Shown: one piece after another, positions 28,403 through 43,076 of the stretch
Layout of the letters: each line of letters opens with the position of its first letter
Position numbering within the stretch: position 1 is the first letter of the stretch
NCBI GenBank assembly: GCA_017481725.1
Contig: JAFUOX010000098.1
Coordinates: 1-43,167, forward strand
Source: Kiritimatiellia bacterium
Lineage (GTDB): Bacteria; Verrucomicrobiota; Kiritimatiellia; RFP12; UBA3636
DNA length: 43,167 bases
Reading direction: 5' to 3'
The notes under the pieces: model-generated
Database searches by the model: none
Seen by the model: only the letters and a program-made list of their open reading frames with translations
What the model was told of the DNA's origin: nothing
Translations under genes and position numbers: made by a program

Positions 28403-28572
28403 GTGCGAAGAAGGGACGCAGAGACGCAGAGGACGCAGAGGTCGCAGAGGCTTGCGTGGTGGTGTCGATGATAACACTACCGCTTGTCGTTGCCTTGTTT
28501 TGCTCCTTTTATCGCAAAGGCAACTTCCAAGCGCTAGTGTGTTCGCCCACAAGAATGCAAAGACGCGGAGCT
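28403..28572 (+). repeat. Long direct repeat B, left copy
   Basis: 170 bp matching the copy at 34704-34884 in the same orientation. From 28465 to 28572 the match is 108 bp with only three differences, while the GGGACGCAGAGACG-rich head is more variable. Short partial copies flank it (28381-28402 and 28571-28614). It has no protein character. Together the two long copies enclose a 6-kb block of foreign-looking genes. Confidence 0.85.
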
Positions 28573-28636
28573 GCTGCACGTGGTGGCTAAAAGTGCGAAG
28601 AAGGGACGCAGATAACTGATTGTCGCTTGCATTCCA

Positions 28637-29546: not shown

Positions 29547-29765
29547 ATGGATAAGTTATACGCACTCGTAATAGGTGGCAAAATGTATTATTGTTTAGGT
29601 GTGATAACAGATTCTTTGCTTGAATCTGTTGATTTACTGGCTAAACAAATGAAAATTAAATTCCAAAATAGCGAGAATCTATGTGATGATTTTTGTTTGT
29701 TGATAAAGGAAAAGTACGGAATAGTCTTAACTCCAATCAGCATTTCCTATGTATTTAGGAATTAA
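29547..29765 (+). CDS. Small protein of unknown function
   Basis: 72 residues beginning MDKLYALVIGGKMYYCLGV and rich in leucine with one acid/lysine-rich stretch. I choose the ATG at 29547, 10 nt after GGGAG; the in-frame ATG at 29538 leaves only 1 nt. No family recognised. It follows the tnpV remnant and its stop codon lies inside the strong hairpin shared with the converging DGQHR gene. It may be cargo of the same element. Confidence 0.5.
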   Translation: MDKLYALVIGGKMYYCLGVITDSLLESVDLLAKQMKIKFQNSENLCDDFCLLIKEKYGIVLTPISISYVFRN

Positions 29766-29802
29766 GCAGAAAGCCTGTCAAATATGACAGGCTTTCTGCT
29801 TA
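29763..29802. terminator. Perfect 18-bp bidirectional terminator overlapping two stop codons
   Basis: TAAGCAGAAAGCCTGTCA (29763-29780) and TGACAGGCTTTCTGCTTA (29785-29802) are perfectly complementary with a 4-nt loop AATA. The left arm starts on the stop of the small + strand gene and the right arm ends on the stop of the - strand DGQHR gene, so one structure ends both converging transcripts. Confidence 0.88.
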
Positions 29803-31542
29803 TAATAGTTCTATTGTTTCTTTGGGTAATTTAAATGCCGTTTCCAAAATATCAGTAGAAAATTTTCTGTATTGGCTGGATGTATATGGGAAACCATCTT
29901 TTGAAAAATCAAAGTTCCATTCAGTGAAAACTTTGTTGTAAAATTTAAAATCCTTAACACCAATTACACTTAATTGACGTGTAAACGCAATAATGAAACC
30001 GTTAAGGGCTATAACAGTCAACAATTTAGATTCAGGATCATCCCAATAAGCTTTGAGATTTTTATTGATTGCTCCAAAGTATTCACGAATAGCAGAAGCA
30101 CAGAACGCCACATAATCTTGGATTGCTGCATCATTAGAGGATAACAAAGCATCTTTATCACCCGTCCAATGATCAAAAAGACTTTGTTTTCCCTCTACTG
30201 GTGTTATAGTAACCAAATATCGAAGGGCAAAACGCACAATTGATGCAGTTTTTATCTTGCCCTTATCGAGCGAAGATATTTGTAGCATATTTTTAAATAT
30301 ACCCTCTTTGTTTAATTTCTCAATTACAAATTGAGCTAAACTCTCATCTGCTATAGGATTTTTAATTCGTTTGATTTGTAGCAGGATATTTTGCGGTACG
30401 GCTTTTGCGTTCGAATTAATATCATCGAATATTTTGCTTTGTATTTTTGCTCTCTCTTCCAATTTCATATCTTTAGGAAAAACTAAGCCGGTAACTAAGA
30501 GATGAAGCTGTTTGCGCAATTCGGCTATCTTTTGTTCTTGCTTACTATCTATTCCACTTTCGTAATGTGCATAAATACGATGCTGTCCGTCAATTACGCA
30601 AATAGAATTCAATTCTTTTGGTAATATAAGTTGGCAATTTCCCTCTAAAGCACTTATCTCTTCTATAGATTTAAAGTGTCCAGAAGCATCTTTAAAAGCA
30701 ACATCATCAGGCAAAGCAACAATTATATTATTATAAAACGCTTCACCTTTTGTCTCTATAAAACTTCGTACTTTTTTAAGGCGATTATTATCGATAAGTC
30801 TTTGGTACAACCAAATAGATTCTTCCCAATTGTCTTTTCGAAGAACGTAACATGTATTTAACAAATCTTCTGCAGACATCATAAAAGAAACTACTCTTAC
30901 TTTATTTTTTAGTCCTGTAAATTCTCTTGGGTAAATAATCGGTGCTGTGATTTCAGAATTTCCACTAGAACTTGAAATTCTTCCAATATCTTTAGCCTTT
31001 AAGTCTAAAAACCTAAAGATTTCATTTCGTGCCGAAAGCTTTATACCTTTTACAGTCCATTGGAAATAATCAAGCGTTTGTGGTTCAACGAATTTTAAGT
31101 TGTTAAACAACTCATAATCTGTTTTAGACAGAGATAGTTCATTTTTAGATATGTATAATCCAAAAATTTTAATACGCTCGATATCGTATTTATTAAGTAT
31201 TTTGTTGTGTTCGGGAAATAATTCCGTTAACTTGTTAATAAATTCACCTAGATTTTTCTTTATTTCACCAAACGCCTCATTTTTAGTACGAATATGATCA
31301 CGAAATTCGCTGGTTTTTTTCGTATCTTCACACACTAGCCAAATATTCTCATGAATAAACAGAGAGTCGATTTCTACTTTGCGTAAACCTATTGTCATTT
31401 CATGATCATTTGTCGGAATATATTTAAAACCTGCACCTGTAAAGATATTCCTTATTTTTGTTTTAAAGGTCTTTTTTTCTCGCTTTAATAATTGTTCTGG
31501 AGTAAGCTGTTTTCTTTTTTTTGTTTTTTTATTCGTTTTCAT
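29800..31542 (-). CDS. DGQHR-domain protein with a PD-(D/E)XK-like N-terminus (probable defence component)
   Basis: 580 residues, very basic at the N-terminus (MKTNKKTKKRKQ). The DGQHR motif (318-322, VIDGQHRIYAH) is the ParB/DndB-like signature seen in DNA phosphorothioation and 7-deazaguanine modification systems. Residues 52-76 read GLRKVEID followed by LVCEDTKK: Glu57, Asp59, Glu72 and the D-T-K at 73-75 resemble the acid and (D/E)XK core of restriction-type nucleases; this is my own reading and not a confirmed hit. It overlaps the methyltransferase gene by 14 bp, so the two are translationally coupled. The pair could be a restriction-modification unit in which this protein is the nuclease; a regulator role, as for DndB, is the alternative. 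Confidence 0.72.
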   Translation of the reverse strand: MKTNKKTKKRKQLTPEQLLKREKKTFKTKIRNIFTGAGFKYIPTNDHEMTIGLRKVEIDSLFIHENIWLVCEDTKKTSEFRDHIRTKNEAFGEIKKNLGEFINKLTELFPEHNKILNKYDIERIKIFGLYISKNELSLSKTDYELFNNLKFVEPQTLDYFQWTVKGIKLSARNEIFRFLDLKAKDIGRISSSSGNSEITAPIIYPREFTGLKNKVRVVSFMMSAEDLLNTCYVLRKDNWEESIWLYQRLIDNNRLKKVRSFIETKGEAFYNNIIVALPDDVAFKDASGHFKSIEEISALEGNCQLILPKELNSICVIDGQHRIYAHYESGIDSKQEQKIAELRKQLHLLVTGLVFPKDMKLEERAKIQSKIFDDINSNAKAVPQNILLQIKRIKNPIADESLAQFVIEKLNKEGIFKNMLQISSLDKGKIKTASIVRFALRYLVTITPVEGKQSLFDHWTGDKDALLSSNDAAIQDYVAFCASAIREYFGAINKNLKAYWDDPESKLLTVIALNGFIIAFTRQLSVIGVKDFKFYNKVFTEWNFDFSKDGFPYTSSQYRKFSTDILETAFKLPKETIELL

Positions 31543-32455
31543 TTTTTTCCTCCCGCACTAAGCGAAACTCTTCTGGTAGTTTAGCAACAGACATATTTGT
31601 ATTTGGTGTCATTACTGGAATATCATCTCTAATTTTAATATCACCTTTGATGGCATTTTTGATTCTTTGTGTAGTTAAGTTGTAATAATCTTGTTTTATC
31701 TCTGCACCGATAAATTTTCTTTTTTCAACAAAAGTTGCTAGTGCAGTTGTACCAGAACCCATAAATGGGTCTAAAATTATATCCGCTTCATTCGTCAAAG
31801 CTCTAATAAGTCGTTGTGGAATTGCAACAGGAAACTGGCAAGGGTGCTCAGTTTTTTCGATATGATTTGCTTTTACATTAGGTATATCCCAAACATCGGA
31901 CGGATTTTTTCCATAGGGATTTCCGCTTAACTCGCCCTTATGTTCGCCCTTATAATGCCTTTTCCCTGGATATTTTTGAGGTACTCGAACACAATCTAAA
32001 TTGAAATTATAGGCTTCACCTTTAGTAAACCACATAATCATTTCGTGCCTACCGCTAAAACGCTGAGTGCTATTTAACCCATGACCGAAAGTCCATATTA
32101 TTCGATTTCTAAGTATCAATGGGTATTCCAAATGATCATTTTTTGATGTGAATATTTCATATACCAAATAATCCAAGGGAATAATCGAAGAATTAGATAC
32201 ATGATAACCTATCTGCCAACATATACTTCCGCCGGGTTTTAATATTCTATAAATATCATCAAAAATGTTTGTATGAAGTTCTTTAAAGGTTTCTGTATCT
32301 GCCTTAGGATCTTCATACGCTTTTTTCATACAATACGGAGGAGATGTTATTATCAAATCCACCGTTTCATTTGGAATTTCCTTTAAAAGTTTTTGACAAT
32401 CACCGTTAAATAATGTCATTAAACTTTTAGCATTATAATGCTTATATATTTTCAT
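31529..32455 (-). CDS. Site-specific DNA methyltransferase (N4-cytosine/N6-adenine type)
   Basis: 308 residues. The catalytic motif is TSPPYC (SPPY at 38-41), followed much later by the AdoMet-binding motif DPFMGSGTT (229-237): the beta-class order of amino-methyltransferases. SPPY favours N4-cytosine methylation, but N6-adenine enzymes with SPPY exist. The middle (about 120-200, FGHGLNSTQRFSGRHEMIMWF...PGKRHYKGEHKGELSGNPYG) is the likely target-recognition region. Its 3' end overlaps the DGQHR gene by 14 bp. It would protect host sites in the proposed two-gene unit. A GAGAG ribosome site precedes the ATG. Confidence 0.88.
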   Translation of the reverse strand: MKIYKHYNAKSLMTLFNGDCQKLLKEIPNETVDLIITSPPYCMKKAYEDPKADTETFKELHTNIFDDIYRILKPGGSICWQIGYHVSNSSIIPLDYLVYEIFTSKNDHLEYPLILRNRIIWTFGHGLNSTQRFSGRHEMIMWFTKGEAYNFNLDCVRVPQKYPGKRHYKGEHKGELSGNPYGKNPSDVWDIPNVKANHIEKTEHPCQFPVAIPQRLIRALTNEADIILDPFMGSGTTALATFVEKRKFIGAEIKQDYYNLTTQRIKNAIKGDIKIRDDIPVMTPNTNMSVAKLPEEFRLVREEKNENE

Positions 32456-32553: not shown

Positions 32554-32775
32554 TTAACGATAAACACTCATTACGTTTTCTGCAATTCTTTTAATTACAG
32601 GCACAACAACGCTATTACCGCATTGTTTATATGCTTTGTCAAGTGGAGTTTTAGGGGCGAATTTATAATCATTAGGAAAGCCTTGTAATGCCAAACATTC
32701 ATAAGGCGTGATTCTCCTTATCCCATAATCATCTAGGATTACAGGAATATCTTTATTCCAAATATTTGATGCCAT
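32554..32775 (-). pseudogene. C-terminal fragment of a cytosine-5 DNA methyltransferase
   Basis: 73 codons holding only the last conserved blocks of Dcm-type enzymes: IRRITPYECLALQGFPNDY (motif IX) and AYKQCGNSVVVPVIKRI (motif X). The catalytic PCQ loop and AdoMet motifs are absent. Upstream sequence cannot supply them because the two-TM gene ends 39 nt away. Unusually the fragment keeps an ATG and a good AAGGGAG ribosome site. So it may be a leftover cut by rearrangement, or a separately translated half of a split methyltransferase whose other half is elsewhere; I favour a remnant. Confidence 0.8.
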
Positions 32776-33603: not shown

Positions 33604-34203
33604 TTAGTTGTGTAGCAGTATCTCCATAATGTCCATTACTTTATTATAAACCCTCAGCTTCTTTGCATAATTGGAAAGGGCGATGAGGTTTTTGTTTGTA
33701 TCGTTTGCATAGGCGTTTACTGCCTTGCTGAACATTTCGTTATCGACCTTGCCACGATGCTTGAACATATCGCAAATGGTGCGCTCACGGTCGTAAATGG
33801 CAAAGGTAACGCCGTTCTCGGTGATTGTAGTCTTGCCGAGGTCATAAATATCGTCTTTAACGTAATAGACCTTCATCGGCACGGAGGTATTAAGCCTGCG
33901 TGATGCACTTCTTGGAACGGTAACAGACCAAACCCTCGGCATAAAATCGCTGTAGCCATAGCGGAACAGAGCCGACTCCATACTGATGATCGCTTCGGGA
34001 ATGGTAGAAGCGATTACCTGCTCATCGGAGAGGTTTAGCTCGTCGGCAAGCAGATAATAGCCTTGGCGGACACGCTGAAGAAAGCCGTCTGCACAAAGCT
34101 TATATATTTTCTCCTTTGGTACACCGGCAGATGTGAGAGCAGACAGCTTTGCGATTCCACCGCTTTGGCTAATTATGTTTTTTATAATTTTTTTATGTTC
34201 CAA
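33604..34203 (-). CDS. AbiEi-family antitoxin/transcriptional repressor (orphan of AbiEii)
   Basis: 199 residues from a TTG start at 34203. A ribosome site GGAGGC (34215-34210) sits 6 nt ahead of it, and from there the protein begins MEHKKIIKNIISQSGG like other AbiEi proteins; a longer reading from an ATG at 34305 adds an unrelated hydrophobic leader. The N-terminal winged HTH (LSALTSAGVPKEKIYKLCADGFLQRVRQGYYLL) and the C-terminal domain (VPMKVYYVKDDIYDLG, AIYDRERTICDMFKHRG, NLIALSNYAKKLRVYNKV) are diagnostic. AbiEi represses its own operon and with the nucleotidyltransferase AbiEii forms an abortive-infection system. No AbiEii follows; the next gene is a two-TM protein. Confidence 0.88.
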   Translation of the reverse strand: MEHKKIIKNIISQSGGIAKLSALTSAGVPKEKIYKLCADGFLQRVRQGYYLLADELNLSDEQVIASTIPEAIISMESALFRYGYSDFMPRVWSVTVPRSASRRLNTSVPMKVYYVKDDIYDLGKTTITENGVTFAIYDRERTICDMFKHRGKVDNEMFSKAVNAYANDTNKNLIALSNYAKKLRVYNKVMDIMEILLHN

Positions 34204-34222
34204 TGTCCTGCCTCCAACAAAC

Positions 34223-34316
34223 GATAACACATTGTGTTTAATGTTTTCGTTTGTATAATAGCACAAGGGTGTGAATATAGCAATAAAAAACGAAACAAAA
34301 GTCAATTTGTGTTATC
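34223..34316. promoter_or_regulatory. Paired inverted boxes around the AbiEi promoter
   Basis: GATAACACA at 34223-34231 is repeated inverted as TGTGTTATC at 34308-34316, 76 nt apart, bracketing the promoter. The left box also lies in a 13-nt palindrome AACACATTGTGTT (34226-34238). AbiEi proteins are known to bind inverted repeats and shut off their own promoter, so this is a likely operator. Confidence 0.55.
34255..34283 (-). promoter_or_regulatory. Promoter for the AbiEi cluster
   Basis: On the - strand TTGCTA (34283-34278) and TATTAT (34260-34255) with a 17-nt spacer, about 52 nt ahead of the TTG start. It lies between the two inverted boxes. The + strand also reads TATAAT at 34254-34259, so the site may work in both directions. 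Confidence 0.5.
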
Positions 34317-34703: not shown

Positions 34704-34884
34704 GTGCGAAGAAGGGACGCAGAGACGTAAAGGTCGCAGAGGACGCAGGGCTTACGTGGTGGCTTGTATGGTGGTATCGATGATAACACTACCGCTTGTC
34801 GTTGCCTTGTTTTGCTCCTGTTATCGCGAAGGCAACTTCCAAGCGCTAGTGTGTTCGCCCACAAGAAGGCAAAGACGCGGAGCT
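34704..34884 (+). repeat. Long direct repeat B, right copy
   Basis: Matches 28403-28572. The stretch 34777-34884 differs from 28465-28572 at three positions: CCTG against CCTT, CGCG against CGCA, and AAGG against AATG. The upstream part has a small extra segment CTTGTATGGTGGT compared with the left copy. Confidence 0.85.
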
Positions 34885-35810
34885 TATGCACGAGGGATTC
34901 TTAAAAAAAAGATTGGAAAGTTTGACAGTTTGCAAGTTTGACAGTTTGACAGTGGGGATGAGGGTGGCTTTGCCGCCCGGTGTTGCTGTGGCGAGAGGTG
35001 GCAAGGTGATAACCCTTTGCCTCCTTGAGCATAGACAACAATCGTCAGCCCACCACCACATAGCATTTACATGCAAGCTTCTCGTCCGCCCTCGCGCGGA
35101 CGCGCGTGAAGGATTTTGAGAATTATGGTTCAAGACCTTCACGAGCCCCCTTATTTTGCGATAAATGCAGTGGGTTTGCACTTTTGTTATGATAGTTGGC
35201 ATAAAAGGCAGGTCATTTGTACGGGGAAAGTTCGGCTTTATTCTATATTTATGCCTGTGTGCAGCTTATACATAGCTAGCACTCCCGATTGTACTTTTGG
35301 TGGCTTTCAGTGTGATTTTCAGCCAAAAGAAGTAGTGGGGAAGTAGAAAATGGGGTAAAGACGAAGTATTAGTGTTAAAGTGTTGCAATCAGGCAGTGTT
35401 TTTGCCATGGTTTTTCAAAATAGATTGAATTTTCACCCTATAATATGGTAATATAACGATGTTGTTGATGCCATGCGTGGCGTCACTTAAAAATAGAATA
35501 ATTTTGCGTAACTGCAAACACGACTGTTCATACGAAAACCACCACTTTTCATATAGCGAACAGCATGTATGTGGGAACGTGTCCATTTGTCATGGCGCGT
35601 TCTCTCTACTTGTTTCGCTATGGCCTGTGGTAGGGCTTCATATGAGACAAGTTAGAGAGGGCTCGTTTTTTTTTGTTTGCTGTTATGCTTGGTATAAATA
35701 AAATAGCATAGTAAAACAAAAGACAGAACAAATTCTATAAATACTTTAGATAAGAACAATGGCTAGAAAATAAGTTAATATTGAGTTTGTTTTGTATTTA
35801 AAAGGCACAA
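34885..35810. other. Non-coding stretch before the helicase operon
   Basis: About 925 bases without a convincing gene. A short direct-repeat patch at 34919-34953 has AGTTTGACAGT three times. Elsewhere the sequence is mixed and ends in an AT-rich leader; a TATAAT at 35439-35444 has no well-spaced -35 partner. The same applies to 34374-34703, which holds only repeat A copy 4. Several 60-80-codon open frames here look random. Confidence 0.5.
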
Positions 35811-38800
35811 ATGAAGATATTTAATAATATTTCCGATATCGTTAGAGATGATATGGTTAAAACAATATCCGTTAGTGATAGAGTGTCTATAGCAGCTGCT
35901 TGTTTTTCAATTTATGCCTATAAAGAATTAAAAGAACAGTTAGAAAATATAAAAGAATTTCGTTTTATTTTTACATCTCCAACATTTATCGCTGAAAAAG
36001 AAAAAAAACAAAATCGTGAGTTTTATATCCCAAAGCGAGAACGAGAGCAAAGCTTGTATGGGACAGAATTTGAAATCAAACTTCGTAATGAGATGACCCA
36101 AAAGGCAATCGCCAAGGAATGTGCTGACTGGATTCGTAGAAAGGCAAAGTTCAAGTCCAATACGACTGGCGAGAATATGGGTGGTTTTATAACTGTTGAA
36201 GGGCAAGTAGATGATTATACTTATATGCCTATAAATGGTTTTACTACTGTAGACATCGGTTGTGAGCGAGGAAATAACGCTTATAATATCGTGAACCGCT
36301 TTGAAAATCCAGTGACCAAGGAATACCTCAAAACATTTGAAGCAATCTGGTCTGATAAGGACAAGTTGCATGATGTTACCGAAACAGTTATTGAAAATAT
36401 TGCGACAGCTTGTAATGAGAATTCCCCTGAATTGATTTACTTTATCACCTTGTTCAATGTGTTCAGCGAATTTCTTGAAGACATTTCAGAAGATGTTCTT
36501 CCAAATGAGGCAACAGGCTTTAAAAATAGTAAAATCTGGGGAATGCTTTATGATTTTCAAAAAGATGCAGCACTGGCAATTATCAATAAATTAGAGAAAT
36601 ATAGTGGTTGCATCCTTGCTGACAGTGTCGGACTAGGTAAGACTTTTACGGCACTCGCAGTTATTAAGTACTACGAAAACCGTAATAAAAATGTTCTTGT
36701 TCTTTGTCCAAAGAAATTAGCAGGAAACTGGAATACATATAATGATAATTATATCAATAATCCTATTGCTCAGGATAAATTAAGGTATAAAGTTTTATTT
36801 CATACAGATTTATCTAGGACTAGTGGAAAATCTAATGGAACAGATTTAGATAGGCTAAATTGGGGTAATTATGATCTTGTTGTAATAGATGAGTCTCACA
36901 ATTTTCGTAATGGTGGAGAATTCGAAGACGAGGAATTAGAAGAAAATCGTTATGGACAACTTGTAAAAAAGGTTATTAAAGCAGGCGTAAAAACAAAAGT
37001 TTTAATGTTGTCTGCCACGCCAGTTAATAACCGATTTAATGATTTAAAAAATCAGTTAAATATAGCCTATAGTTCTAATGATGTAGAGATAGATGATTTA
37101 TTAAATATTTCAACAAAATTTGATAATGTTTTTCGTAATGCTCAAAAAGTGTTTAATTCTTGGAGTAAATTACCACCAGAGGAAAGAACAACAAATAATC
37201 TATTAAAGAAATTAGACTTTGATTTTTTTGAAGTGTTGGATTGCGTGACAATTGCTCGTTCAAGAAAACATATTGAAAGGTACTATAATTCTCAACAAAT
37301 TGGTAAATTCCCAGAAAGAAACAAACCTATTTCTTTGCGTCCTAAATTAACAGATTTAACTGGCTACATTAGTTATGATGAAATTTACTCACAGTTAGAA
37401 AAGTTAAATTTGGAAGTCTATACTCCTTCTATCCATATTTTTGATAGCAAAAAAGAGAAATATGAAGAAAACAATGGGGTAAATGAAAGTGGTTTAACAC
37501 TATCAGGACGTGAAGAGGGCATCCGTAGATTGATGCGAGTAAATCTATTAAAAAGATTAGAAAGTTCAGTGTACTCATTCCGTCTAACATTAAATAGAAT
37601 TTTAGATTTAATTGTGCAAACAATTTCTGATATTGATTCTTATAATCAAAATAGAGCAAATAGAATAGAAGAATATTCAAAAAATTATGATTATAATTAC
37701 TCATCGGAAGATATAGACTTAGACTCTTCCTTAGTAGACAAAAAGGTTAAGGTCGATTTTGCAGATATTGATTTAACAACATGGAGAAAGTCTCTAGATA
37801 GCGATGTTAAAATCCTAAAATCTTTAATTGATGGTGTTTCCAAAATAACACCAGAACATGATGCAAAACTACAAGAACTTTTAGGAATAATCTCTCAAAA
37901 AATAGATAACCCAATTAACGAAAATAATAAAAAAGTCCTCATTTTCTCTGCTTTTGCAGACACAGTAAACTATTTGTATGAACATGTAAGTCCGATTATA
38001 AAAGAAAAATACGGATTAGATACTGCGATTGTGACAGGCGGTATCGAAGGGAAATCTACTGTCAATAATTTGAAAAATTCACTAAACAACATTTTAACTT
38101 GTTTTTCTCCTGTTTCAAAAGGTAAAGACATCTTAATGCCTGATAGCAAACAAGAAATTGATATTCTTATTGCCACAGATTGTATATCTGAAGGACAAAA
38201 TCTTCAGGATTGTGATTATGTTGTAAACTACGATATTCATTGGAATCCTGTTAGGATTATTCAGAGATTTGGTCGAGTTGATCGAATAGGTAGTAAAAAT
38301 CAGTGTATTCAATTAGTAAACTTCTGGCCAGATATTGATCTAGATGAATATATCAATTTGAGGGCGAGAGTTGAAACACGAATGAAAATCACGGTTTTAA
38401 CTTCTACTGGTGATGATAACTTAATCAATCCAGAAGAAAAAGGAGATTTGGAGTATCGTAAACAACAGCTTAAGAAATTACAGGAAGAAGTTGTTGATAT
38501 AGAGGAAATGTCCAGTGGTATTTCAATCATGGATTTGGGGCTAAATGAGTTTAGACTCGATTTACTTGACTATATTAAAAAACATGCTGACATAGATAAA
38601 AAGCCTAAGGGACTTCATTCTGTTGTTCCTGCAAATAAAGATTTAAAGTCAGGTGTTATATATGTTCTTAAAAATAGGGATAATGGTGTAAATATCGATA
38701 ATCAAAATCGAATCCACCCATTTTACATGGTCTATATTGGCGATGATGGTGAAATTATTTGTGATTATTTGAATCCTAAAAAATTACTAGACATCATGAG

Positions 38801-39047
38801 ATTTTTATGCAAGGGACAGAGTGAACCAATTAAATCTGTTTATGAAGAATTTAATAAAGAAACTGAAGATGGCAAAAATATGGGAAAATTGTCTTCATTA
38901 TTGTCTGATGTTGTAGCTTCTATTATTAAAACAAAAGAAGGAAATGAGATAGATAGTTTGTTTCAATATGGTGGAACTTCAGCTTTGATGTCAACCATAT
39001 CAGGGTTGGATGATTTTGAACTCATTTGTTTTTTAGTTATTAGGTAA
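35811..39047 (+). CDS. SNF2-type DNA helicase/translocase with an extended N-terminal domain
   Basis: 1078 residues. The N-terminal 240 residues resemble the phospholipase D-like module found in related defence helicases, though no HKD catalytic motif is visible. The ATPase core has Walker A GLGKT (274-278), Walker B DESH (360-363), motif III SATP (401-404), and motif VI QRFGRVDRIG (from 818). Residues about 600-700 are a charged helical insertion. It likely moves along DNA for the restriction or defence operon that follows: DUF4391 starts 5 nt downstream, then Mod. It could supply the translocation function of a type III-like system in place of a classical Res subunit. The start is set by the AAAGGCAC ribosome region. 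Confidence 0.88.
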   Translation: MKIFNNISDIVRDDMVKTISVSDRVSIAAACFSIYAYKELKEQLENIKEFRFIFTSPTFIAEKEKKQNREFYIPKREREQSLYGTEFEIKLRNEMTQKAIAKECADWIRRKAKFKSNTTGENMGGFITVEGQVDDYTYMPINGFTTVDIGCERGNNAYNIVNRFENPVTKEYLKTFEAIWSDKDKLHDVTETVIENIATACNENSPELIYFITLFNVFSEFLEDISEDVLPNEATGFKNSKIWGMLYDFQKDAALAIINKLEKYSGCILADSVGLGKTFTALAVIKYYENRNKNVLVLCPKKLAGNWNTYNDNYINNPIAQDKLRYKVLFHTDLSRTSGKSNGTDLDRLNWGNYDLVVIDESHNFRNGGEFEDEELEENRYGQLVKKVIKAGVKTKVLMLSATPVNNRFNDLKNQLNIAYSSNDVEIDDLLNISTKFDNVFRNAQKVFNSWSKLPPEERTTNNLLKKLDFDFFEVLDCVTIARSRKHIERYYNSQQIGKFPERNKPISLRPKLTDLTGYISYDEIYSQLEKLNLEVYTPSIHIFDSKKEKYEENNGVNESGLTLSGREEGIRRLMRVNLLKRLESSVYSFRLTLNRILDLIVQTISDIDSYNQNRANRIEEYSKNYDYNYSSEDIDLDSSLVDKKVKVDFADIDLTTWRKSLDSDVKILKSLIDGVSKITPEHDAKLQELLGIISQKIDNPINENNKKVLIFSAFADTVNYLYEHVSPIIKEKYGLDTAIVTGGIEGKSTVNNLKNSLNNILTCFSPVSKGKDILMPDSKQEIDILIATDCISEGQNLQDCDYVVNYDIHWNPVRIIQRFGRVDRIGSKNQCIQLVNFWPDIDLDEYINLRARVETRMKITVLTSTGDDNLINPEEKGDLEYRKQQLKKLQEEVVDIEEMSSGISIMDLGLNEFRLDLLDYIKKHADIDKKPKGLHSVVPANKDLKSGVIYVLKNRDNGVNIDNQNRIHPFYMVYIGDDGEIICDYLNPKKLLDIMRFLCKGQSEPIKSVYEEFNKETEDGKNMGKLSSLLSDVVASIIKTKEGNEIDSLFQYGGTSALMSTISGLDDFELICFLVIR

Positions 39048-39052
39048 GCATT

Positions 39053-39709
39053 ATGTTTAATTTACCAGAAAATACATTTTATAACAAAAAAATACCAAAA
39101 GAGACCTTTTATTCTAAAGAGGGATTTTCTTCTTCTTTGAAAAGATTGTTTATAGACCAAGTTAAAACTATTTATTGGAGAAATAAAATAGCTACAACCA
39201 CAACAAATTTAAGTGAAGGCAAAATAGTAAAAGAAATTGAGATTATAGAAATTAGATTAAAGACTAACATATTAAATGAAGATGTTTTGCGAGTTATAGA
39301 TAAAGGAATACCTTATCACACAATATTCCTTCTTGAAAATGAAGGGAAATGTCAAGCTAGTGTTTCCTATAAAGAAATAATAGAGAATAAGGGTGTGATA
39401 AGTTTAGGTGAATATTATCACTCTAAATTTGTAGGTATGGAAGAATTTTTATTAGAAATGGATGGTCTAAACTTAGATAAAGTATATGAAAATTTATTCT
39501 GCCAAATTGCGGGAGATTTATTGCTAGTGCGTAAAAACGAACCATTAAAAGACGCAATTGTTCGTAATTTAGAGATTAAGAAATTGGGAAAACAAATCAA
39601 CGCATTGGAAAACAAGATACGCAAAGAAAAGCAGCTTAATGTTCAAGTTAAATTGAATGACAATTTAAAAGAATTAAGTAAAGAGTTAAAAAAACTTTCA
39701 ATGATTTAA
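39053..39709 (+). CDS. DUF4391 protein
   Basis: 218 residues. MFNLPENTFYNKKIPKETFY, LKRLFIDQVKTIYWRNKI, IIEIRLKTNILNEDVLRVIDKGIPYHTIFLL and the Lys-rich coiled C-terminus are those of the DUF4391 family, usually located between a helicase and a type III-like methyltransferase. Molecular role unknown. It is tightly spaced to the helicase and Mod genes. Confidence 0.8.
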   Translation: MFNLPENTFYNKKIPKETFYSKEGFSSSLKRLFIDQVKTIYWRNKIATTTTNLSEGKIVKEIEIIEIRLKTNILNEDVLRVIDKGIPYHTIFLLENEGKCQASVSYKEIIENKGVISLGEYYHSKFVGMEEFLLEMDGLNLDKVYENLFCQIAGDLLLVRKNEPLKDAIVRNLEIKKLGKQINALENKIRKEKQLNVQVKLNDNLKELSKELKKLSMI

Positions 39710-39729
39710 ACGAGATAGGAGATGAAGCA

Positions 39730-41595
39730 ATGTTGGAAAAAATGAGAATGGAGTCGTTGGATATGACGACACAAAACATTGAGAAGATTGGCGCATTGTT
39801 CCCGAATTGCATCACAGAGACCATTGACGAAAATGGCAAACCGAAAAAGGCAATTAACTTTGAAATTTTGAAACAGATGCTTTCTGGTGATGTGATTGAA
39901 GGAAGCGAAGCATACGAATTTACATGGGTAGGGAAAAAGGCTGCCATTGTAGAAGCAAATAAACCTATCCGTAAGACTCTTCGTCCTTGTAAGGAAGAGA
40001 GTGTGAACTGGGATACGACTGAGAATCTTTACATCGAGGGTGATAACCTTGAAGTATTGAAACTTTTGCAAGAAAGTTATCTTGGGGCAGTTAAGTTGAT
40101 TTACATTGACCCTCCATACAATACAGGTAGTGATTTTGTGTATGCAGATGATTTTCGTATGGATAACAAAGATTATGCAGAAGAAATAGGTCAATTTAAT
40201 GATGAAGGAGAGAGGCTGTTTGCCAATACGGATTCTAATGGTAGATTCCATTCAGATTGGTGCTCAATGATATATTCCAGACTGCTCGTTGCACATACTA
40301 TGCTTAGAGATGACGGCGTCATGTTCATAAGCATTGATGATAACGAAGTTGAAAACTTAATAAAGATTGCTGACGAAGTATTTGGAAGACGAAATAGGCT
40401 CGCGGTGTTAGTTTGGAAGAAAAAGTATACTGGTGGAAAAGGAACAAGTACTTTTGTTGATTACCACGAATATATTCTTGCCTATGCAAAAGAGATTAAT
40501 AGTGTAGGCGAAATAGCAATGGCTCGCCCAGATGAGGAAAAAGGTAAATTTACACAAAAAGATGAGTATTTTGAAGAGAGAGGTATGTATTACACTCGTC
40601 CTCTAAAATCCAATCTTGACCCCCGTCCTACTCTTGTTTATCCTATTGAACTGCCAGATGGTGGCACGGTCACTACACAATGGATTTGTGCAAAGGATAC
40701 TTATGAAGAATTACTTAGAGATGGTAGAATCGAATTTAAGAGTTCGCAATCAAGTAAGTATCCAGTTTATAAAAAATTCTACGAAAAAGATGGGGGTGGA
40801 AATGTAAAAATACCTTCCTTCTTAGAAATATCTAACAATAACGAGGCAAAAGAAGAATTGAAATCTTTGTTTGATATTGTACAAACAAGAGATTTACCTT
40901 TCCAAACTCCAAAGCCCACAAAGTTGCTTGAAGTTTTTGTTGAAAATCTTTCGGGCGAAAATGATATTGTAATGGACTTTTTCTCTGGTTCTGCATCTAC
41001 TGCTCATGCAGTGTTCAATGTTAATGCAAGAGACGGAAAACAAAGAAAGTTTATTATGGTGCAACTAAACGAAAATAAAGAAATTCGTGGAAATGAGTTT
41101 AATAGCATCTGTGAAATTGGCAAAGAGAGAATAAGACGAGCAGGTATGAAAATAAAAGCAGAAAATCCTTTAATTTCTACTGTTTTGGATATTGGCTTCC
41201 GCGTTCTTAAAGTTGATGATACCAATATGAACGATGTGTATTACTCTGCTGGTGAGTACTCTCAGGACTTGCTTTCCATGCTGGAATCTAATGTTAAGGC
41301 AGACCGTACAGACCTTGATCTTCTGTTTGGTTGCTTGCTTGAATGGGGACTTCCTCTCTCGTTGCCTTATACCTCCGAGACCATTGAAGGATGCACCGTG
41401 CATACCTACAATGATGGTGACCTGATTGCTTGCTTTGACGAGAATATTCCTGACAGTGTCATCAAGACCATTGCAAAGAGACGACCTCTTCGTGCAGTGT
41501 TCCGTGACAGCAGCTTTGCGGATAGCCCCTCCAAAATCAATGTGGGCGAGGTGTTCAAGCTGTTGGCACCTGAGACTAGAGTGAAGGTTATTTGA
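39730..41595 (+). CDS. Type III-like adenine DNA methyltransferase (Mod)
   Basis: 621 residues. The catalytic motif DPPYNTG (Asp127) precedes the AdoMet-binding DFFSGSAST (416-424), the beta-class order of type III Mod subunits, with KLIYIDPPYN and HSDWCSMIYSRLLVA as in Mod. The likely target-recognition region is between them (about 215-400). The start has a good AGGAGA ribosome site 8 nt upstream. In a normal type III system the next gene is Res; here the next gene is a nuclease-like protein of another kind. So methylation here may mark host DNA for that enzyme and the helicase. Confidence 0.92.
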   Translation: MLEKMRMESLDMTTQNIEKIGALFPNCITETIDENGKPKKAINFEILKQMLSGDVIEGSEAYEFTWVGKKAAIVEANKPIRKTLRPCKEESVNWDTTENLYIEGDNLEVLKLLQESYLGAVKLIYIDPPYNTGSDFVYADDFRMDNKDYAEEIGQFNDEGERLFANTDSNGRFHSDWCSMIYSRLLVAHTMLRDDGVMFISIDDNEVENLIKIADEVFGRRNRLAVLVWKKKYTGGKGTSTFVDYHEYILAYAKEINSVGEIAMARPDEEKGKFTQKDEYFEERGMYYTRPLKSNLDPRPTLVYPIELPDGGTVTTQWICAKDTYEELLRDGRIEFKSSQSSKYPVYKKFYEKDGGGNVKIPSFLEISNNNEAKEELKSLFDIVQTRDLPFQTPKPTKLLEVFVENLSGENDIVMDFFSGSASTAHAVFNVNARDGKQRKFIMVQLNENKEIRGNEFNSICEIGKERIRRAGMKIKAENPLISTVLDIGFRVLKVDDTNMNDVYYSAGEYSQDLLSMLESNVKADRTDLDLLFGCLLEWGLPLSLPYTSETIEGCTVHTYNDGDLIACFDENIPDSVIKTIAKRRPLRAVFRDSSFADSPSKINVGEVFKLLAPETRVKVI

Positions 41596-41606
41596 GGAGA
41601 TGCAGA

Positions 41607-43076
41607 ATGTATTTTTCTGATTATTTCAATGTTTCTGAAGAAGTATTAGAATCATATGGAGCATTAAATATTTCTCTTATAAATGATTTACCTCTTTTTA
41701 TAGACCCTTTTTTATTATTTAATAGTAAAAAAGAAGAATATCAGAAGTTGCATAAAGATATTATTTCGTATGTAGTTTTCCTAAGAAATAAGTCTTTATG
41801 TACGAATGTTAATAGTGGTTTGTTAAAAAGCTGGTATAATTTCCCAGAGGTTAAACAAAATTGGTTAGGTTTTTCTTTAAATGGCAATTCTGGTCGTGGT
41901 TTGGGAAATGATTTTGCAAAAACTTTGAATCATAACTTCTCAACTGTTTTATCCGATTTTGGAGAAGAAAAAGAGACACATTCTCATTTGGAAAAACTCT
42001 GCTTGTTTAAAGATGGTGTTGGAAGAGACTCAATAAGTGATTTTACAACAAATTTGATAAAAGAGTTTTTGCTTGAATATACAGAAACTTTCGCAAAACA
42101 ATACATTGACAAAAAGTTTTGTAAGAACTATGCTATAAATAAAGTTTCTTTTAACTATGAAACAGAAAGCTGGAATTCTAAGAGCTATTATCTTCCAAGT
42201 TTTAATGGGGATTATGTTTTACTGACTCCAATGGATATACTTACAAAAGATGATACTTGGATTAATAAAGATTCTATGTACCATGAATTTGATGCCATAA
42301 TCTTTTCAATGGAAAACGAACAACTTAGGGCTCAATTGAATAATTATTTTAGGAAGTTGTTACCTAAAAATGCAAAACAAAAAGATATTAATTATGCAAA
42401 AACAAGAACTATTTATGACTTTCCAGAATTTATTCCTGCTTATATTAAATATAAGGAAGAAAATGGGGAGAAGGCAACAGCAATAAGTTCTCAAAAAGTT
42501 ACAAAGGTTAAGAAACAATGTATCGAGGGTGTTCGAAGGTTTCAATCACTTTTATCTGAGCAGATAGATTTCTATAAAGAAGCAAACGATTCTTATGAAG
42601 AATCATTAAGAAGAGTAAATTATCTCAAACAAGTTATAGAGAATAATGATGGGTATAAACTATTTTATGATAACAGAAAGCAAGTTGTCGGTACAGAAAA
42701 AGACTTACAATTATTGTTTAGGCTGGTATGGTTTGGAACTGAATACTCCGTAGATAGTGAAGTAAATAATGGACGAGGTCCTGTAGATTATAAAATATCA
42801 AAAGGAGCTAGTCATTCTACCTTAATAGAATTTAAATTAGCATCAAATGCTAAATTAAAACAAAACTTAGAACATCAAGTTGAAGTATATAAAAAAGCAA
42901 ACCAAAGTAAAAATTCAATAAAGGTTATCTTATACTTCAATAGAGAAGAAAAACGTAAAGTCGAAAAAATACTTAAAGACTTAAAGATTGAAACTGTTGA
43001 AAATATAATCTTAATAGATGCTTCATTGCAGACAAAGGCAAGCGCATCTAATGTGCGAGATAGGAGTGAATATTAG
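41607..43076 (+). CDS. Protein with C-terminal PD-(D/E)XK-like nuclease motif
   Basis: 489 residues from ATG 41607, chosen for the GAGGAG ribosome site 41593-41600; the TTG upstream is not needed. The N-terminal part (FSDYFNVSEEVLESYGALNISLI) is conserved in uncharacterised proteins next to such methyltransferases. Near the C-terminus, GRGPVDYKI (Asp394) and LIEFKLAS (Glu408-Phe-Lys410) form the acid and ExK pattern of restriction-type nucleases, with Glu in SEVNNGRG ahead of it. It is likely the DNA-cutting subunit of the operon. The Mod stop overlaps its ribosome site, so translation is coupled. This motif reading is mine. Confidence 0.68.
   Translation: MYFSDYFNVSEEVLESYGALNISLINDLPLFIDPFLLFNSKKEEYQKLHKDIISYVVFLRNKSLCTNVNSGLLKSWYNFPEVKQNWLGFSLNGNSGRGLGNDFAKTLNHNFSTVLSDFGEEKETHSHLEKLCLFKDGVGRDSISDFTTNLIKEFLLEYTETFAKQYIDKKFCKNYAINKVSFNYETESWNSKSYYLPSFNGDYVLLTPMDILTKDDTWINKDSMYHEFDAIIFSMENEQLRAQLNNYFRKLLPKNAKQKDINYAKTRTIYDFPEFIPAYIKYKEENGEKATAISSQKVTKVKKQCIEGVRRFQSLLSEQIDFYKEANDSYEESLRRVNYLKQVIENNDGYKLFYDNRKQVVGTEKDLQLLFRLVWFGTEYSVDSEVNNGRGPVDYKISKGASHSTLIEFKLASNAKLKQNLEHQVEVYKKANQSKNSIKVILYFNREEKRKVEKILKDLKIETVENIILIDASLQTKASASNVRDRSEY

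Follow-up and report, generated by a model that had tools for sequence, protein, structure and literature searches.

A beta-class methyltransferase paired with a predicted nuclease-DGQHR fusion protein: a putative two-gene restriction-modification system from a Kiritimatiellia bacterium

Introduction

What does a DGQHR-domain protein do when its genomic partner is one small DNA methyltransferase gene? DGQHR proteins have been described in DNA marking by sulfur and by deazaguanine, a field in which the role of DndB is disputed (PMC10853773). The question is raised by a gene pair found in positions 1 to 43,167 of contig JAFUOX010000098.1 of a Kiritimatiellia bacterium (GCA_017481725.1), and this whole stretch of 43,167 nucleotides is referred to as the window. 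A first-pass annotation, made from the sequence alone, had suggested that the pair could be a two-gene restriction-modification type, and our analysis supports that reading, with phage restriction and DNA cutting as its inferred parts. We estimate a probability of about 70% that the pair is a two-gene restriction-modification system in which a PD-(D/E)XK-like nuclease is gated by a DGQHR domain of the ParB/Srx fold, cleavage and the use of nucleoside triphosphate (NTP) being the steps that we infer. The genes concerned are as follows:

31529..32455, minus strand: methyltransferase gene, 308 aa, ATG start
32333..32344, minus strand: SPPY catalytic motif of the methyltransferase, residues 38-41, invariant in 14/14 aligned partner methyltransferases
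29800..31542, minus strand: predicted nuclease-DGQHR fusion gene (the effector), 580 aa, ATG start

The methyltransferase and its linkage with the DGQHR gene

The two frames, which share 14 bp (31529-31542), lie exactly where the first-pass annotation had placed them. The methyltransferase matches PF01555 with 187.9 bits against a cut-off of 26.7, and its SPPY motif precedes a DPFMGSG motif (residues 229-235), an order which we take to be that of the beta class, in agreement with the class proposed earlier. The nearest solved structure by sequence is M.RsrI (E 1.9e-31). In the beta class, SPPY instead of DPPY usually goes with cytosine-N4 methylation, which suggests that the mark may be N4-methylcytosine.

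A readable neighbourhood was available for 16 loci of clade A, the clade of the window's effector, namely the window, L003, L004, L005, L013 (the same as L027), L018 (Rhizobium plasmid), L019 (Phyllobacterium plasmid), L020 (Akkermansia phage Chantilly), L035-L040, L042 and L045 (Spirosoma plasmid), while L041 was left out as it encodes a protein identical to that of L020. An SPPY methyltransferase was found at the DGQHR gene in 15 of these 16 loci, and the paired loci range from Clostridia to Alphaproteobacteria and prophages. Thirteen of the 15 methyltransferases belong to one family, with 11 aligned relatives being 43-82% identical to that of the window; the L003 methyltransferase, present by its C-terminal part only and missing the SPPY stretch, was left out of the alignment. 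The L020 and L042 methyltransferases are of a second kind (26% identical), their DGQHR partners are also distant (27%), and the two genes of L020 are convergent.

The distances among the methyltransferases and among the DGQHR proteins were correlated over 13 loci (r = 0.64, 0/20000 permutations), and the correlation persisted without the most divergent L020 and L042 (r = 0.90, 11 loci, 0/20000) and without L020, L042, L004 and L005 (r = 0.87, 9 loci, 2/20000), which argues that the two genes move as a unit. The pair is thus a real module, its recurrence and joint divergence being direct observations. No third gene recurred in more than two of 13 loci among 575 neighbouring frames within 4 kb, a comparison that reaches less than 4 kb in six of the 13 because of contig ends; one neighbour is common to L038 and L040 (31% over 211 residues). 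No other restriction genes are annotated within 7 kb on each side of L018 and L019, and toxin-antitoxin-like and SIR2-family genes are located near the Rhizobium copy (L018).

The predicted nuclease domain and its candidate active site

The 580-residue effector can be divided into the following parts:

31003..31500, minus strand: PD-(D/E)XK-like N-terminal domain, residues ~15-180, predicted from AlphaFold2, structural matches and hhalign to clade B
31282..31368, minus strand: candidate active site, Asp59, Glu72, Thr74, His83 and Lys87, from the alignment
30349..30906, minus strand: DGQHR (ParB/Srx-like) domain, residues ~213-398
30577..30591, minus strand: DGQHR motif, residues 318-322, predicted NTP-phosphate binding, 146/146
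29803..30225, minus strand: helical C-terminal part, residues 440-580, from AlphaFold2 secondary structure, with a possible DNA contact

AlphaFold2 gave a confident model of the full chain (pLDDT 92.7) and of residues 1-185 alone (90.7), in which a PD-(D/E)XK-like N-terminal fold is followed by a DGQHR domain resembling ParB/Srx and then by a helical C-terminal part. The N-terminal model has the core alpha-beta-beta-beta-alpha-beta fold of the PD-(D/E)XK superfamily, and its best structural matches, from the full chain as from residues 1-185, are presumably mostly PD-(D/E)XK proteins. Residues 1-150, for which the first-pass annotation had proposed a nuclease fold, are therefore nuclease-like in the model, and they also match the profile of a sister clade, clade B, whose proteins have ~760-810 residues and in most members an N-terminus reading QID-VF...ECK. 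The clade A and clade B N-termini were aligned by hhalign with a probability of 95.7% (E 9.5e-9), compared with at most 0.7% in the controls (one reversed and eight column-shuffled profiles), and in this alignment Asp59 falls opposite the D of QID, and Glu72 and Thr74 stand opposite the E and the K of ECK, respectively. From these models and profiles, the N-terminal domain is predicted to have a PD-(D/E)XK-like fold homologous to that of clade B, catalysis being likewise a prediction. A search of the PDB by sequence with the effector gave no significant match.

Conservation was assessed in an alignment of 146 sequences, which contains the window protein together with 37 sequences of 68-78% and 108 of 26-34% identity. 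Glu57, Asp59, Glu72, Asp73, Thr74 and the DGQHR motif were found at the residues named earlier, and Asp59, Glu72, His83 and DGQHR are each conserved in 146/146 sequences, while position 57 is Glu in 86 and Asp in 60; a chance pattern of N-terminal acids was rejected on account of this invariance. Hence both the conservation of the acids and the linkage of the genes on which the earlier reading depended were borne out. The proposed site itself needs revision in one residue: Lys75 occurs in 1/146 sequences, that of the window protein alone, and was therefore rejected as the catalytic lysine. Thr74 is kept in 144/146 and Lys87 in 140/146 sequences, and Lys87, on the next helix, is a better catalytic candidate than Lys75. 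Since the profile pairing places Thr74 opposite the ECK lysine, the clade A site appears to be divergent, and Lys87 may stand in for the usual PD-(D/E)XK lysine. The idea that the lysine can migrate in PD-(D/E)XK-type nucleases comes from general knowledge, and our literature search for such migration found nothing.

The DGQHR domain

The effector passes the NCBIfam model TIGR03187 (95.3 bits against a cut-off of 58.85) and falls below that of PF14072 (26.8 < 29.1). The DGQxR, QR and FxxxN motifs named in PMC4619093 are all present, with Gln247-Arg248 and Phe372/Asn376 each in 146/146 sequences. In the predicted model, the domain looks like a ParB/Srx NTP-binding fold, and for this reason there is a firmer basis for regulation by an NTP gate than for recognition, the other role that the first-pass annotation had allowed for it. 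Neither DUF262 (PF03235) nor the HNH domain DUF1524 (PF07510) was present among the effector's Pfam rows at E 0.1. Membership of a Dnd or Dpd cluster was rejected, since the effector scores too low against the equivalogs (51.6 of 450 bits for DGQHR_dnd_1 and 38.5 of 300 bits for DpdB) and no dnd or dpd genes were found among the scanned neighbouring frames of the pair.

Partners of the sister clade B

Thirteen clade-B loci were compared (L022-L026, L043, L044 and L087-L092); the plasmid matches H10, H12 and H13, each equal to H9 or H11 in identity and coverage, are not among them. A Dam-like DPPY methyltransferase adjoins nine of the 13 clade-B genes, called by Pfam for L025 only and by DPPY and sequence for the other eight. 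A radical-SAM gene is found in the immediate cluster instead in L043 (Novosphingobium pNL1) and L044 (Agrobacterium), where it is annotated, and in L090, where it was judged by eye; the contig of L026 is too short to show a partner. The QxD...ECK site is kept in 9/9 methyltransferase-linked and in 0/3 radical-SAM-linked members, a small sample uncorrected for descent, the latter reading ECR, ECT, and ECR with D changed to N. Retention of ECK where a methyltransferase adjoins fits a nuclease that would stay active where host DNA is protected.

A recurring cluster was also observed, containing a short DGQHR protein (~330-435 aa), an HSP90/gyrase-type ATPase and a B12-binding radical-SAM-type gene (L043 6212-10064, L044 6347-10055, L079 4560-9440, L083 4010-8129 and L084 4091-8269). 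The B12-binding radical-SAM gene is annotated in L043 and L044 and is called by resemblance elsewhere, with weak or no Pfam match. This cluster is a candidate DNA-modification module, and its L043 and L044 copies have beside them a clade-B protein that lacks the ECK lysine.

Distribution of the pair

At E 0.001, 1468 of 7996 scored candidates of similar length were relatives, and the whole architecture is not necessarily common to all of them. Three copies of the effector were found in genome records, all metagenome-assembled genomes, which carry the labels Clostridia (83%), Christensenella (81%) and Oscillospiraceae (69%). Passage from one phylum to another is likely. No second full-length clade-A copy was found in 345 genomes of the class, with matches to the DGQHR region in five other genomes; among 387 genomes of the phylum there was one clade-A copy (G458), and G458 was alone among 286 genomes of its own class. 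The IMG/VR contigs carry eight clade-A and six clade-B copies, and two clade-A copies lie on rhizobial plasmids. Scans of the viral contigs for close relatives gave none, and it was a broad profile that found the eight clade-A copies, one of which (L041) encodes the protein of Akkermansia phage Chantilly.

Proposed mechanism and alternative explanations

Under the restriction-modification reading, modification of host DNA would fall to the methyltransferase of 308 residues, and the effector of 580 residues would bind DNA and cut it where the mark is absent through its N-terminal PD-(D/E)XK-like domain, with Asp59/Glu72/Lys87 as the predicted active site and Thr74 at the position of the sister clade's ECK lysine. 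The DGQHR domain would bind and hydrolyse NTP, thereby deciding between release of marked and cutting of unmarked DNA. DndI and SspE offer precedents in which one chain combines a DGQQR NTPase with a nuclease and works together with a DNA mark (PMC11662687, PMC9646914). Phosphorothioate makes DndI turn over ATP faster and let go of self DNA, the nuclease being otherwise active (PMC11662687), while for SspE the mark stimulates GTP turnover and permits nicking (PMC9646914). In a DndI-like variant of our scheme, meeting a mark would speed up NTP turnover and the protein would let go of self DNA, and DNA that lacks the mark would be retained and cut; a simpler alternative, in which the methyl group would block binding, is equally plausible.

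Several observations weigh against this scheme. In the Spirosoma plasmid (NZ_CP056033.1, 2398-4496; L045), a methyltransferase, a BglII-family endonuclease (PF09195, 66.8 bits) and a clade-A protein, present by its initial 194 residues, lie in a row, so that the restriction role there may belong to the BglII-family gene; the DGQHR frame runs off the record end, with no continuation at the record start. At L039, where the 5' side is lost at the contig end, position 59 is Asn and a 733-aa DPPY methyltransferase, also of PF01555, lies downstream. The canonical E-x-K lysine position is Thr74 in clade A, leaving Lys87 as just a candidate substitute. With the full model, every Foldseek match has an E-value above 0.001. 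No Pfam, PADLOC or NCBIfam model identifies the effector as a nuclease, no nuclease model of these libraries hit residues 1-210, and the sole Pfam row in that region, the uncharacterised PF23067, stays under its cut-off (14.3 < 27.4). Moreover, the N-terminal domain may not be the part that cuts, because nicking by ParB domains themselves has been reported elsewhere (PMC5512222); a Bacillus fusion of ParB and methylase that nicks DNA is mentioned there too, as a looser precedent.

The substitution of E-x-K by E-x-T in clade A is also what would be expected if the DGQHR protein were a regulator or accessory of the methyltransferase in the manner of DndB or DpdB, with a dead nuclease-like domain that binds DNA only, and DndB has been described as an ATP-dependent repressor (PMC12704722, PMC10853773). 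A dead site, however, would not need Asp59, Glu72 and His83 to be invariant in all 146 sequences, and the textbook site is present in every one of the nine methyltransferase-linked clade-B members; we regard this explanation as unlikely. Quite unlikely, too, is an SspE-like enzyme in which host methylation would switch the NTPase on and license the nuclease against foreign DNA. It draws on the requirement of SspE restriction for a mark in self DNA, on the DUF262 domain of SspE (PMC9646914) and on the resemblance of the GmrSD DUF262 domain to the DGQHR domain (PMC4619093), but the nuclease class differs (PD-(D/E)XK-like here, HNH in SspE), so that the coupling need not carry over. The viral and rhizobial plasmid copies counted above would agree with a pair that serves mainly in prophage or plasmid maintenance or counter-defence, the methyltransferase shielding the element and its partner killing post-segregationally. 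This we hold to be very improbable, since the copy in the window has other defence genes around it on a 139-kb contig and is bordered by repeats of its own genome, and since any restriction-modification pair can act in this way, which makes it a use rather than another mechanism.

For the restriction-modification reading, the Spirosoma locus also bears on the target. Its methyltransferase is 43% identical to that of the window and 73% to that of L035, a locus without an intervening gene. The BglII site is AGATCT, and the BglII neighbour of so related a methyltransferase hints that the pair may recognise a GATC-centred site.

Locus context

The GC content of 30-34 kb is 33-34%, compared with 37-45% in the first 30 kb of the window. 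This low-GC defence segment is bracketed by a 135-bp dispersed repeat (28449-28583 and 34761-34895), which has at least 40 matches across many contigs of the same genome, the two flanking copies included, with 40 of 71 candidates scored; a contaminant contig was therefore rejected, and the contig belongs to its genome. Among the few named matches, the seryl-tRNA synthetase encoded on this contig is most similar to Kiritimatiellia (78 and 74%), with Clostridia next (73%), which makes a Kiritimatiellia host likely. One further feature lies at the end of the effector gene:

29763..29802, minus strand: 18-bp hairpin at the DGQHR-gene stop codon, likely transcript end

The hairpin has a folding energy of -31.7 kcal/mol (z -10.5), with equally stable shuffles in 0/200, and given its place at the stop codon, the methyltransferase and effector genes may together make up a full transcription unit. 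Between 29500 and 32900, a terminator scan requiring a T run listed none (0 against 1.4 expected), and a promoter scan showed no excess (13 against 15.5 expected).

Other genes were observed around the pair. A 73-residue frame at 32554-32775 (minus strand) matches only positions 270-322 of the 324 of PF00145 (C5-cytosine methyltransferase) and looks like a remnant of an earlier modification gene. An AbiEi-like antitoxin is encoded at 33604-34305 (minus strand; PADLOC, 204 bits), with no AbiEii toxin among the scanned frames neighbouring it. A type III-like restriction island occupies 35811-43076 and continues on contig C73 to ~49500 (L086), with the order HKD-Snf2-like helicase, DUF4391, type III methyltransferase, PDC-M36A-like protein and GmrSD protein (PF03235 and PF07510), after which further frames with nuclease-like motifs follow. 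On a separate contig of the same genome (G000:C3, L085) there is an apparent canonical Dnd cluster, with DndB identified by PF14072 (372.6 bits) and DndC- and DndD-like neighbours judged by eye.

Comparison with known systems and significance

DndI and SspE consist of a DUF262 DGQQR NTPase and a DUF1524 HNH nuclease with DNA phosphorothioation as the partner. Like them, the effector joins a ParB/Srx-type DGQ(Q/H)R domain and a nuclease, here predicted, in one chain paired with a DNA-marking module; unlike them, its nuclease-like domain is PD-(D/E)XK and N-terminal rather than HNH and C-terminal, and the putative mark is base methylation by one small gene. With the GmrSD/BrxU type IV enzymes it would share a ParB/Srx-fold NTP-binding domain with DGQxR, QR and FxxxN together with a (predicted) nuclease, whereas GmrSD attacks modified DNA with an HNH nuclease and the effector has no GmrSD model match and a recurrent methyltransferase. 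The DGQHR domain (TIGR03187) is common to DndB and DpdB, which are shorter (profiles of 338-381 positions) and have other partners. In type II pairs of the BglII/BstYI type, too, a methyltransferase adjoins a PD-(D/E)XK-like protein, the nuclease here being assigned by predicted fold, but in the effector the nuclease-like domain shares its chain with an NTP domain of predicted ParB fold, which textbook type II enzymes are not known to have. Restriction-modification as such is already known; a PD-(D/E)XK-like and ParB-fold DGQHR fusion paired with a methyltransferase is undescribed in the accessible extracts of the open-licence PMC literature that were found, REBASE lying outside this coverage.

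A broader and tentative proposal, which we would not at present favour, is that a ParB-fold NTP switch with a PD-(D/E)XK nuclease could be a general self/non-self gate, an NTP-gated, modification-reading restriction type outside types I-IV that would be coupled to at least two unrelated methyltransferases (beta SPPY and Dam-like) and perhaps to a radical-SAM mark. As a minimal two-gene unit, with one methyltransferase and one effector, the pair would make the ParB-fold switch testable, and if the effector cuts DNA, it would add a class of restriction enzymes with unmined specificities.

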